In this document: positions 9,670 through 59,346 of the stretch, piece after piece | Layout of the letters: the number at the start of each line of letters is the position of its first letter | How positions within the stretch are numbered: position 1 is the first letter of the stretch | DNA from: Desulfurococcales archaeon | GTDB taxonomy: Archaea > Thermoproteota > Thermoprotei_A > Sulfolobales > Desulfurococcaceae | Assembly: GCA_015520735.1 (NCBI GenBank) | Contig: WAPN01000037.1 | Span: forward strand, 1 to 64,000 | DNA length: 64,000 nt | Direction of reading: 5' to 3' | Program-made: the position numbers and the translations under genes | The notes under the pieces: model-generated | What the model was told of the DNA's origin: nothing | What the model saw: the letters and a program-made list of their open reading frames with translations, nothing else | The model's database searches: none

Positions 9670-10914
9670 ATGAAGAAGGCATATCTAGCTGAATCGGTAA
9701 TAGGCGTATTTGCGTTTGATGAGAACGGAGAGGTCATAGCAAAGTCTCTTGCACCAAAGAATCTCGACGATAACGTGGAGTATCTTCTCAGGCTCGAGGA
9801 GGGGGCCGAGACTCCTCAGCTTAGAGAAGTATTAGAGCAACTGAAGGAGAAGGGATATAACCATATCGTCGTGGAGACCCCCGAGATCGGTAAACACGTG
9901 TCAAAAGTAGGGCTGGAGCCCGAAGTACAGATTGCTCACAAGGGCGCAATCATTCTACGAGAGAACCTAGCAAAATACGGCATTGAGAACGGTTTCGCCG
10001 AGGATGAAGAAAGCTTCTTCTCAACACTACACGAAATACTCATTGAGACGACTAGAAGAAAATTAAGGCGTGCAGCACAGAAGCGTGACATGTTAGCTGT
10101 TCAGGCCATAAGGACTATTGATGATATAGACAAGACTATAAACCTGTACGTCGCAAGGCTTAGGGAATGGTATAGCCTCCACTTCCCCGAGCTCGATGAG
10201 CTGGTCAGAGAACATCTCGACTACGCGAAGATAGTCTACGAGCTAGGACATCGTATGAACATAACAAAAGAGAACTTGATAAAGCTAGGGTTCAGCGAAC
10301 AAAAAGCCGAGAAGATCGCCGAGGCGGCTAAGAAGAGCATGGGCGCAGACCTAAGCGACTTCGACATAGAGTACATCAAAACACTAGCAGGCATCATATT
10401 AGACCTTTACAAGCTACGCGAGACCCTCGAGGGATACATAGAGGCCATAATGAAGGAGGTTGCACCAAACATAACAGCACTCGTAGGTCCCAAGCTAGGA
10501 GCAAGGCTCCTAAGCCTAGCCGGCGGCCTCGAAAACCTGGCGAAAATGCCTGCCAGCACAATCCAGGTATTAGGAGCAGAAAAAGCATTGTTCAGAGCAC
10601 TGAGAACAGGTGGTAAACCACCTAAGCACGGCGTGATATTCCAGTACCCGGCAATACATAGAAGCCCGAGGTGGCAGCGCGGTAAGATCGCGAGAGCCCT
10701 CGCGGCAAAACTCGCCATCGCAGCTAAGGTCGACTTCTTCACAGGTAGATTCATCGGAGATAAGCTGAAAGAAGAACTCGAGAAGAGAATCGAGGAGATC
10801 AAGAGGGTCTACGCGAAACCGCCGGCCAGAAAGAAAGAAGAGAAACCCTCTAGGCCTAGACCCACCAGGAAGAGGGGCAAAGGTATGAGGAGAAGAGGAA
10901 GAAGGAGAAGATAA
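9670..10914 (+). CDS. nop5: Nop5/Nop56/58-like C/D RNP scaffold protein
   Basis: Core scaffold of the archaeal box C/D ribonucleoprotein: its N-terminal domain holds fibrillarin, its coiled coil dimerises, and its Nop domain clamps L7Ae-bound guide RNA. About 414 residues. The Nop domain is clear (GPKLGARLLSLAGGLENLA, then HGVIFQYPAIHRSPRWQRGK), and the tail is very basic (RPTRKRGKGMRRRGRRRR). ATG 9670 is chosen over GTG 9661 because GGTGA sits 5 bases before it. Directly upstream of fibrillarin, as in most archaea. Confidence 0.97.
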   Translation: MKKAYLAESVIGVFAFDENGEVIAKSLAPKNLDDNVEYLLRLEEGAETPQLREVLEQLKEKGYNHIVVETPEIGKHVSKVGLEPEVQIAHKGAIILRENLAKYGIENGFAEDEESFFSTLHEILIETTRRKLRRAAQKRDMLAVQAIRTIDDIDKTINLYVARLREWYSLHFPELDELVREHLDYAKIVYELGHRMNITKENLIKLGFSEQKAEKIAEAAKKSMGADLSDFDIEYIKTLAGIILDLYKLRETLEGYIEAIMKEVAPNITALVGPKLGARLLSLAGGLENLAKMPASTIQVLGAEKALFRALRTGGKPPKHGVIFQYPAIHRSPRWQRGKIARALAAKLAIAAKVDFFTGRFIGDKLKEELEKRIEEIKRVYAKPPARKKEEKPSRPRPTRKRGKGMRRRGRRRR

Positions 10915-10928
10915 GGAGGTGATGATAT

Positions 10929-11633
10929 ATGTCCCAGGTCGTATCGGTTAGGCCTCATGACAAATATTATGGTGTATACATAGTTGAGCTAGAAGATGGG
11001 AGTGTAAAGCTTGCAACAAAGAACCTTGTACCAGGCCATCGAGTTTACGGAGAACGATTGTTCAGATACAACGGTGTAGAATATCGTGAATGGAACACCT
11101 ATAGAAGCAAATTGGCAGGTGCACTTGCAAATGGTCTAGCAGAGCAGCCGATAAGGGAGGGCCACAAAATCCTATATCTAGGAGTAGCCACGGGAACAAC
11201 GGCTAGCCACGTTTCCGACATAGTGGGGCCGAAGGGCAGAATATACAGTGTCGAGTTCGCGCCAAGGGTCATGAGAGAATTCGTCCTAGTAGCGGATATA
11301 AGGAAAAACCTCTACCCCATACTGGGCGATGCGCGTAAGCCTCAGAACTACAGGCACTTAGTAGAGATGGTTGATGGAATATATGCTGATGTCGCACAGC
11401 CTGACCAAGCAACGATCGTTGCCGACAACGCCGACTTCTTCCTAAGGGAAGGAGGCTACATATTGTTGGCCATTAAGGCTAGAAGCATAGACGTGACTAA
11501 GGAGCCCAGCGAAGTATACAAGAGAGAGATCAATACGTTAAAAGAGCGCGGATTCGAAATCATTGATGTCGTACACCTAGAACCATATGATAGAGACCAC
11601 GCAATGGTCTATGCAAGATATAAGAGGAAATAG
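10929..11633 (+). CDS. flpA: Fibrillarin-like rRNA/tRNA 2'-O-methyltransferase
   Basis: Catalytic subunit of the C/D RNP; it methylates the ribose 2'-OH of the nucleotide chosen by the guide RNA using SAM. 234 residues with the fibrillarin order: [12 protein letters not shown]-domain, NPFRSKLAAA-type segment (here [14 protein letters not shown]), SAM site [15 protein letters not shown], and [13 protein letters not shown], plus [23 protein letters not shown] stands upstream of ATG 10929, an ideal ribosome-binding site, 14 bases after nop5. One operon with nop5. Confidence 0.97.
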
Positions 11634-30869: not shown

Positions 30870-30980
30870 GGGGCCGTAGTCTAGCTTGGCTAGGATGCCG
30901 GCCTGGGGGGACACCCCCGCCTAGCCAAGCCTGGTGTCACAGAGCGCCGGTGATCCCGGGTTCAAATCCCGGCGGCCCCA
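30870..30980 (+). tRNA. tRNA-Pro (GGG) with a 36-base intron
   Basis: Acceptor GGGGCCG/CGGCCCC, T arm CCCGG-GTTCAAAT-CCCGG-type, anticodon stem CCGGC/GCCGG and anticodon GGG (30905-30907) after T33. The intron is 30909-30944, at the canonical position between bases 37 and 38, with an inner helix GACACC/GGTGTC; the bulge-helix-bulge is approximate. Mature length 75, discriminator A, no encoded CCA. An 11-base stretch of the intron (30920-30930) is perfectly complementary to the D arm (30884-30894). Confidence 0.93.
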
Positions 30981-57613: not shown

Positions 57614-58432
57614 CTAGGATGGACTGTACTTATAGATTTTTATCCTATCTCCGGTTTCAACTTTGAGAAACTCTGCTGCGCTGGATTTGTTGATTCCAAT
57701 CTCGAAATATCCCCATGAGTTGATATAGCATGCGACTTCTCCTTCGGGAACATTACTGAAGCTACGTACATATGGGCACTTGAATCCTCTAGAGCCCAAG
57801 ATCACGTCCAGAGTATCTCCAAGGTTTATACCTATTTTTTCAATGAGTTCGCCGCTTATGTTACTCATGATGTTTCCGAAGTGATCAATATAGATGATCA
57901 TTCCTTCGATGACATTACCTGTTATCCTCGGTTTCCGTATATCTAGTTTCACGTAGTCATCGATCGGCTCGCCGAGCTGTTCTGGTTCTAAGCCACGTGA
58001 TAACCACGCTGCTATGGGTGCAAATACGTCTCTGCCGTGGAAGGTGCCTGAAACTCTTGGAAGCCTATATGGTGATCTTGATATATCATATACTCCTATT
58101 ACTCCGTCTTCCTCGGCAAGCAGTGATAAACATCCATTGTCTGGGCCCACCAAGTAATAGTTTTTCGTGACAATCAGGATTGCACGCCTAGAGCTACCTA
58201 CACCAGGATCCACCACACACGTAAAGATGGATCCGCGTGGGAAATACTTGGCAGATACTAAGAGTATCACGGCTGCTGCATTTATATCGAACTTTCTCAC
58301 ATTATGGGTCAAATCTATTATCTGTGCTTCAGGATTAATGGTCTTTATAACGCCCTTCATAACGCCTACATAGGGATCCTTTAACCCGAAATCCGTTATT
58401 AGTACAATAGGCCCACTCAAACCAACCACCAT
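57614..58432 (-). CDS. SAM hydrolase (adenosine-forming), DUF62 family
   Basis: About 272 residues. ITDFGLKDPYVGVMKGVI, DLTHNV, VVDPGVGSSRRAI and GPDNGCLSLL are the DUF62/SAM hydroxide adenosyltransferase signatures; the second domain has FHGRDVFAPIAA. Catalyses SAM plus water to adenosine plus methionine. The start is uncertain (ATG 58432, or a TTG near 58420 with GGTGGTTGG upstream). Lies ahead of the amidotransferase gene. Confidence 0.9.
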   Translation of the reverse strand: MVVGLSGPIVLITDFGLKDPYVGVMKGVIKTINPEAQIIDLTHNVRKFDINAAAVILLVSAKYFPRGSIFTCVVDPGVGSSRRAILIVTKNYYLVGPDNGCLSLLAEEDGVIGVYDISRSPYRLPRVSGTFHGRDVFAPIAAWLSRGLEPEQLGEPIDDYVKLDIRKPRITGNVIEGMIIYIDHFGNIMSNISGELIEKIGINLGDTLDVILGSRGFKCPYVRSFSNVPEGEVACYINSWGYFEIGINKSSAAEFLKVETGDRIKIYKYSPS

Positions 58433-58486
58433 GCAATTACATCCATAAAGATAGGTTAAATTAAGCAAAAATAAATGATACTAACT

Positions 58487-58555
58487 GGTTGCCGGGGATG
58501 GAGCCGATGGGCGGGCTGAACAGTGATGATCCATTGTAGCAACAACCCGGCAACC
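58487..58555 (+). ncRNA. Box C/D-type guide RNA candidate closed by a 10-base-pair stem
   Basis: GGTTGCCGGG (58487-58496) and CCCGGCAACC (58546-58555) pair perfectly. Inside: degenerate C GATGGAG, 12-base guide CCGATGGGCGGG, canonical D' CTGA (58516-58519), 3-base spacer, canonical C' GTGATGA (58523-58529), 12-base guide TCCATTGTAGCA, degenerate D ACAA. Spacing is the standard 7-12-4-3-7-12-4. By memory of 16S rRNA, the first guide pairs with CCGCCCGTCG (C1402 region) and the second with GCTACAATGG (about 1230). A tRNA-Ile follows 156 bases later. Confidence 0.55.
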
Positions 58556-58663
58556 CATGATATTTATTAGTTCATCTGCATATTCTTCAAACACGGGCCC
58601 GATGACAGGCAGCGGATAAACGGATCAGAGGATGAAGACATATTATTGGGAGGGCCAAACAAG

Positions 58664-58711: not shown

Positions 58712-58785
58712 GGGCCCGTAGCTCAGCCTGGTGGAGCGCCCGGCTGATAACCGGGAGGTCGGGGGTTCGAATCCCCCCGGGCCCA
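58712..58785 (+). tRNA. tRNA-Ile (GAU)
   Basis: 74 bases: acceptor GGGCCCG/CGGGCCC, D arm with GCTCAGCCTGGTGGAGC, anticodon stem CCCGG/CCGGG with loop CTGATAA, anticodon GAT after U33, T arm GGGGG-TTCGAATC-CCCCC, discriminator A. No intron and no encoded CCA. The stop of the next gene begins at the very next base (58786). Confidence 0.95.
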
Positions 58786-59346
58786 CTATTTCTCTGCGTC
58801 AATCACCATTGTTTCAACTATACTTGTTGCTGGTATAATGTATGGTATTTGAACTAGGTATCGTGCTAGCCTGGTCTCTATGGGGTTGAAGAGGAGGTAT
58901 ACATTATCGTATGTTTTGCCTTCTGTGTGCAGCAGTGTTGTGATTGATGCTATCCCCAGCATATTTGATACTAATACTGGTTCGTGTTTTTCCCCGAGGT
59001 ATGTGATTATTTCTCTTAGTTTTTCCGGGTTATAGGGTACTATTTCGGCTTTGTCATTTATTCCCTCAAAGTAATCGATATTACTAATATAGTCTAGGAG
59101 CCTTGTTGCTGGCAGATATATTCGGGAAGATACCCCTCTACTATTTAGTTCTTCAAGGAGGACTTTTAGAGGCCATAACTGTATTACTCCACCCGGTATG
59201 ATATTGAGGTGCGTATCTCCGGTTATAAAGTCGAATATCTTGGAGTGCTGAGCCCACGGTGTTGGTGGGACTGAGAGTATTTTCTGTATCTTTAAGGGGT
59301 CCAAGTATCTTCTGTATAATGGTTCATCACAGTTCAGGACAGCCAT
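58786..59346 (-). CDS. Protein of unknown function, Rossmann-like
   Basis: 186 residues with alternating hydrophobic strands and helices (GGVIQLWPLKVLLEELNSRGV, EPVLVSNMLGIASITTLLHTE). Not recognised; the layout hints at a Rossmann-type fold. Its stop touches the tRNA-Ile 3' end. It is the last of three minus-strand genes with the 98-residue and amidohydrolase-like genes. Confidence 0.6.
   Translation of the reverse strand: MAVLNCDEPLYRRYLDPLKIQKILSVPPTPWAQHSKIFDFITGDTHLNIIPGGVIQLWPLKVLLEELNSRGVSSRIYLPATRLLDYISNIDYFEGINDKAEIVPYNPEKLREIITYLGEKHEPVLVSNMLGIASITTLLHTEGKTYDNVYLLFNPIETRLARYLVQIPYIIPATSIVETMVIDAEK

Follow-up and report, generated by a model that had tools for sequence, protein, structure and literature searches.

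All guided ribose methylation is modeled structurally on archaeal C/D ribonucleoproteins (RNPs), and a small RNA gene in the 64,000-nucleotide stretch of archaeal DNA analyzed here (the window) raises the question of how a C/D guide RNA could be built when its internal boxes are perfect and its terminal boxes are degenerate. Read directly, positions 58487-58555 of the plus strand run GGTTGCCGGG-GATG-GAGC-CGATGGGCGGG-CTGA-ACA-GTGATGA-T-CCATTGTAGC-A-ACAA-CCCGGCAACC, with the following parts:

58487..58496, + strand: 5' arm of the terminal helix, GGTTGCCGGG, adjoining GATG with the 3-nt bulge absent (sequence, fold and covariation)
58497..58500, + strand: GAUG, remnant of the terminal C box (RUGAUGA), of which positions 1-2 are G-G and lie inside the helix
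58505..58514, + strand: D' guide, CGATGGGCGG, pairing with 16S CCGCCCGUCG, with 58511 opposite C1402 (N+5)
58516..58519, + strand: D' box CTGA, canonical (sequence and alignment A1)
58520..58522, + strand: k-loop spacer ACA, 3 nt (sequence)
58523..58529, + strand: C' box GTGATGA, canonical (sequence and alignment A1)
58531..58540, + strand: D guide, CCATTGTAGC, pairing with 16S GCUACAAUGG; 58537 would face A1236 (N+5)
58542..58545, + strand: terminal D box, degenerate, with ACAA instead of CUGA (sequence comparison)
58546..58555, + strand: 3' arm of the terminal helix, CCCGGCAACC (sequence, fold and covariation)
10117..10794, + strand: Nop5, protein partner of C/D guide RNAs (PF01798, 6.9e-82)
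10947..11624, + strand: fibrillarin, methyltransferase of C/D sRNPs (PF01269, 3.1e-108)

The original prediction described a C/D guide RNA with perfect internal boxes, degenerate outer boxes replaced by a GC-rich stem, and a closing stem of 10 base pairs, and this description was borne out. CTGA and GTGATGA are read directly and the RNA has conserved orthologs; at the ends GAUG is kept, ACAA stands where the D box should be, and the helix adjoins them. Sequence and fold both give 10 contiguous perfect pairs in the terminal stem, the fold has a z value of -3.99 with none of 200 shuffles folding equally well, and the three innermost pairs have predicted probabilities of at least 0.98. The gene is intergenic, with a minus-strand SAM hydroxide adenosyltransferase gene (57614-58468) on one side and, downstream, a second C/D-like RNA followed by tRNA-Ile (58712-58786). 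Among the features that define archaeal C/D guide RNAs, we found internal D' (CUGA) and C' (RUGAUGA) boxes, genes for fibrillarin and Nop5 in the same window as the RNA, homology to canonical members (orthologs with four boxes and the same two guides exist), and guides of the expected length (about 10–12 nt) complementary to rRNA, in N+5 register for the D' guide and, for the D guide, only when ACAA is counted as a D box. No terminal kink-turn of C and D boxes, with its bulge of 3 nt, was found in the window RNA. As judged from its sequence, this RNA is a genuine, conserved C/D-type guide RNA that has diverged from canonical C/D sRNA.

C1402 is a universally methylated P-site nucleotide, and it is the site to which the better conserved of the two guides points. 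Both guides form 10 bp with 16S rRNA, and the N+5 rule leads from the D' guide to C1402 and from the D guide to A1236 (E. coli numbering; same-genus 16S, L045), in agreement with the earlier claim that they fit 16S near 1402 and 1230. These targets were read on same-genus (L045) and family 16S sequences because the window's own assembly breaks inside 16S; the two target stretches were unchanged across all the same-genus and family sequences compared. The 16S partner of the family form of the D' guide, CGA(C/U)GGGCGG, is CCGCCCGUCG, and that of the D guide, CCAUUGUAGC, is GCUACAAUGG. In the same-genus genome used here (L045, L047; G007 contig C7), the 16S gene appears to be interrupted, apparently by an intron, as its model match 501-828 extends over 971 bases. 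A ribose methyl group on C1402 has been mapped in E. coli, P. abyssi (Cm1369), yeast and human (PMC11542601). In most genomes the D guide retains its pairing with 16S near A1236. In genus g14 (L022, L025, L027, L028, L030) it is replaced, in one genome by a guide that pairs at 12 positions with that genome's own 16S, and in the distant f15 genomes it is absent. Because the C1402 guide stays in both groups, predicted targeting of C1402 is the fixed function of this RNA family. Two f15 loci (L229, L230) have an 11-bp bulgeless helix and the C1402 guide only, and are possibly natural single-guide archaeal C/D RNAs.

Orthologs of the window RNA are widespread. Blastn matches strongly in most of the family's genomes: E values lie between 2e-41 and 5e-56 for the genus itself and run from about 1e-18 to 1e-4 for other genera. 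A covariance model made from 31 sequences found orthologs in 37 of the 40 family genomes, in 121 of 214 genomes of the order, and, with the lower sensitivity that applies at phylum scale, in 60 of 397 phylum genomes. Named carriers include Staphylothermus, Thermogladius, Ignisphaera, Pyrodictiaceae and Sulfolobales MAGs; we take G021 and G020 to be Staphylothermus marinus and S. hellenicus, G026 to be Thermosphaera, G102 to be Ignicoccus hospitalis and G108 to be Ignisphaera aggregans. L008/L014 are probably the Staphylothermus orthologs, and L009/L010 those of Thermosphaera. Only tRNAs reach the gathering score in Rfam, and the window RNA falls in no Rfam family at that score. A scan of its own genome for the canonical C-D'-C' pattern gave only 3 matches. 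In alignment A1, the ATG of GAUG is invariant in all 31 rows and its G is present in at least 90%, the D' guide core and the D' and C' boxes hardly vary, and no gaps fall between GATG and D'. The possibility that GAUG is kept as an extension of the guide was rejected, because the bases that separate it from the D' guide core vary freely.

The open end of the RNA is where it departs from other C/D sRNAs. In a kink-turn, a bulge of 3 nt must separate the stem from the tandem G.A pairs that boxes C and D form (PMC6770171); in the window RNA, the helix meets GAUG directly and pairs the three nucleotides that a terminal kink-turn leaves unpaired. With A1 in the bulgeless register, 10 of 10 pairs showed double changes and the score was 0.445, against 0.145 for shuffled alignments (0/500), and controls with the register slid along scored between 0.07 and 0.21. 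A2, which comprises 29 sequences outside the window's family, 3 of them also in A1, was 81% paired in the bulgeless register and scored 0.554 against 0.175 shuffled (0/500); of the five covariation measures, two gave weak results (62/500 and 28/500 shuffles). As A2 was chosen to exclude families that have true kink-turns (f7, f8 G156, f9), it tests the register among the remainder of the order rather than the whole. In alignment tests of the same type, the kink-turn register with its 3-nt bulge was 35% and 38% paired, at or near the level of shuffles, and a shifted register restoring the bulge was rejected for want of a clear pairing signal. All three would-be bulge nucleotides covary in A1 and A2, and the innermost three pairs read GGG/CCC, CCC/GGG, GAA/UUC, GGA/UCC, GCU/AGC, ACC/GGU or GCC/GGC, depending on lineage. 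Relatedness among the sequences inflates the shuffle tests; nevertheless, these innermost-pair variants represent several separate changes. One set of pair counts is biased where the D box is absent, because the stem position was then picked for the best helix, a bias of which the alignment-based counts from A1 and A2 are free. Judging by these alignments, the helix takes over the bulge nucleotides of the kink-turn rather than merely adding to the outer boxes. This point was missed by the original prediction: exactly the nucleotides left unpaired in a kink-turn are paired here, and the pairing is conserved beyond the order.

We consider it fairly probable that the window RNA, as a diverged archaeal C/D sRNA, directs 2'-O-methylation to 16S C1402 and is built on its k-loop, with a straight helix at the open end and a second guide that is mostly an anchor. 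Sequence, conservation, complementarity, helix covariation and the absence of kink-turn pairing come from the analysis itself, and we infer expression, protein binding, methylation of C1402 and the anchor role. The internal D'-ACA-C' would form a normal k-loop and bind L7Ae, through which Nop5 and fibrillarin would be recruited, and the D' guide would present C1402 for 2'-O-methylation. At the open end, an unbroken GC helix stacking on a G.A mismatch would close the RNA, and the RNP would be asymmetric, because a straight helix replaces the kink-turn there. The second guide would now mostly anchor the RNA and bring two 16S segments together, setting no methylation site; it probably acts as an anchor or chaperone. 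Several points weigh against this explanation. Archaeal C/D activity reportedly depends on having a kink-turn or k-loop at each end (PMC8413462), and an asymmetric RNP might therefore be inactive. GAUG and the A adjacent to the helix are conserved, which would be odd if nothing reads them, and two of the covariation measures in A2 are weak.

The conservation of GAUG is one reason to consider an ordinary symmetric C/D sRNP, in which the long helix would belong to the precursor and be mostly removed by trimming or circularization, leaving L7Ae to kink GAUG and NNAA. A protein-induced kink after trimming is the main rival, because box C/D kink-turns fold only upon L7Ae binding (PMC5689011) and archaeal L7Ae can do without the second G.A pair (PMC8413462); moreover, maturation depends on the boxes and not on the flanks (PMC7994747). 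However, the conserved pairing extends to the very base adjoining GAUG, the kink-turn register gives no clear signal, and holding the three would-be bulge bases unpaired is predicted to cost about 9 kcal/mol. Compensating changes at all three bases that must open would be left unexplained, and we regard a symmetric particle as unlikely. An RNA that has given up methylation altogether, a C/D-derived chaperone pairing with 16S at 1236 and 1402 to help the 3' major domain fold, would account for the conservation of both guides despite the loss of terminal boxes, and double guides have been proposed as chaperones (PMC7994747). It would not account for the almost invariant D' box, C' box and N+5 register to C1402, nor for f15, which loses the D guide yet keeps the C1402 guide, and it seems to us less likely still.

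The original prediction also proposed a permuted or circular guide. Hyperthermophiles commonly have circular C/D sRNAs, in archaea such RNAs often circularize with no bulge-helix-bulge motif (PMC7994747), and the helix of the window RNA juxtaposes its ends. The order stem-GAUG-guide-D'-C'-guide-stem, which is the same in every family sampled and in orthologs with normal boxes, gives permutation no support. For circularity, inspection of the closing helix by eye showed no bulge-helix-bulge motif, which would have a pair of 3-nt bulges separated by 4 bp; its 10 pairs are contiguous, and we give a permuted or circular guide very little credence. An Ignisphaera ortholog (L056, 375-460, minus strand) comes closest to such a motif, with 3-nt and 2-nt bulges that the window RNA lacks (GCGG-AGA-CCCC-GAUG / CAUC-AA-GGGG-CCGC).

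Relatives of the window RNA show several states of the open end. Orthologs in f7 have a textbook kink-turn with a 3-nt bulge (UUGGGC-UAU-GAUG...CUGA-GCCC), and f8 G156 has a true 3-nt-bulge kink-turn with a long stem. Orthologs in f9, which we take to be the Sulfolobaceae and label as such, have normal RUGAUGA/CUGA boxes and little stem. In f2, f3 and f22 a bulgeless helix is combined with a usable D box (AUGA, CCGA or CUGA). Most members of f1, the window's family, have lost the D box too (NNAA). Because f7 has true kink-turns and the Sulfolobaceae have normal boxes, the RNA family, as read from these sequences, descends from canonical C/D sRNAs; the bulgeless helix likely arose first, with the D box decaying later. 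Nearly every relative that has a canonical D box shows a spacing of 5 from D guide to helix; the spacing ranges over 5-8 in the window's family, where the D side has relaxed and the D' side is fixed. In two probable Sulfolobaceae genomes (L202, L203) the ortholog begins a few bases past a tRNA 3' end, and in the probable Ignicoccus hospitalis (L212) it lies about 18 nt past one, an arrangement that suggests tRNA-sRNA co-transcripts.

Among known systems, the canonical Sulfolobaceae orthologs (L201-L203) share with the window RNA the internal D'/C' k-loop, the guide sequences and the order of parts. Canonical archaeal C/D sRNAs, including the Pyrococcus sR26 type, likewise have two guides of about 10 nt with N+5 targets, but they have RUGAUGA/CUGA ends, with a 3-nt bulge when stemmed, whereas the window RNA has a bulgeless helix and has lost its D box. 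The Sulfolobaceae orthologs match Rfam sR3 (RF01133) below threshold (E 3e-5, 28.6 bits against a gathering score of 41), a similarity that comprises the boxes and part of the D guide. The window RNA is also below threshold and the D' guide differs, and membership in sR3 was rejected on these grounds. Eukaryotic guides for the C1402 equivalent (AtU43/Arabidopsis 18S Cm1645, yeast Cm1639, human Cm1703) are C/D snoRNPs directed to the same site (PMC11542601), and the likeness noted here is that shared site. Yeast has asymmetric C/D snoRNAs without a functional C'/D' motif, which have likewise lost one protein assembly site; the motif they lose is internal, whereas the window RNA loses the terminal one (PMC8413462).

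The particle proposed here has consequences beyond this locus. A covarying helix that replaces one kink-turn in scores of genomes is a natural test of the rule that both kink-turns are essential, and the test falls at a universally methylated nucleotide of the decoding center. If true, asymmetric C/D sRNPs would break the rule of symmetric assembly for archaea. The guide family also implies that searches demanding RUGAUGA/CUGA at the ends overlook RNAs of this kind. A stable archaeal lineage of asymmetric C/D sRNPs, with L7Ae on the k-loop only, a straight helix at the open end, and one methylating and one anchoring guide, is a proposal we put forward tentatively, at somewhat less than even chances. 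No prior description of bulgeless terminal helices was found in the literature searched, which was covered in part.

The neighboring gene has similar ends:

58596..58656, + strand: second C/D-like sRNA (GGCCC-GATGA ... GA-GGGCC), core GCAGCGGATAA, a conserved neighbor

This second sRNA follows the first in nearly all family genomes and has a bulgeless form in many of them (CCC-GATGA...TGA-GGG). In the complete genome of the relative G020, bulgeless ends also occur in at least two C/D candidates that are unrelated and whose guides match rRNA (near 1439837 and 1292554), and about 10 others have ordinary ends in what was a home-made scan of a small sample. Because the adjacent sRNA and these unrelated candidates are bulgeless too, bulgeless terminal helices could form a wider class. 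Over 8 bp the core of the second sRNA matches tRNA-Leu genes of G020, and it shows no clear target in rRNA. Elsewhere in the window, a tRNA match at 30870-30980 (plus strand) spans 111 nt and is probably an intron-containing tRNA missed by ARAGORN.
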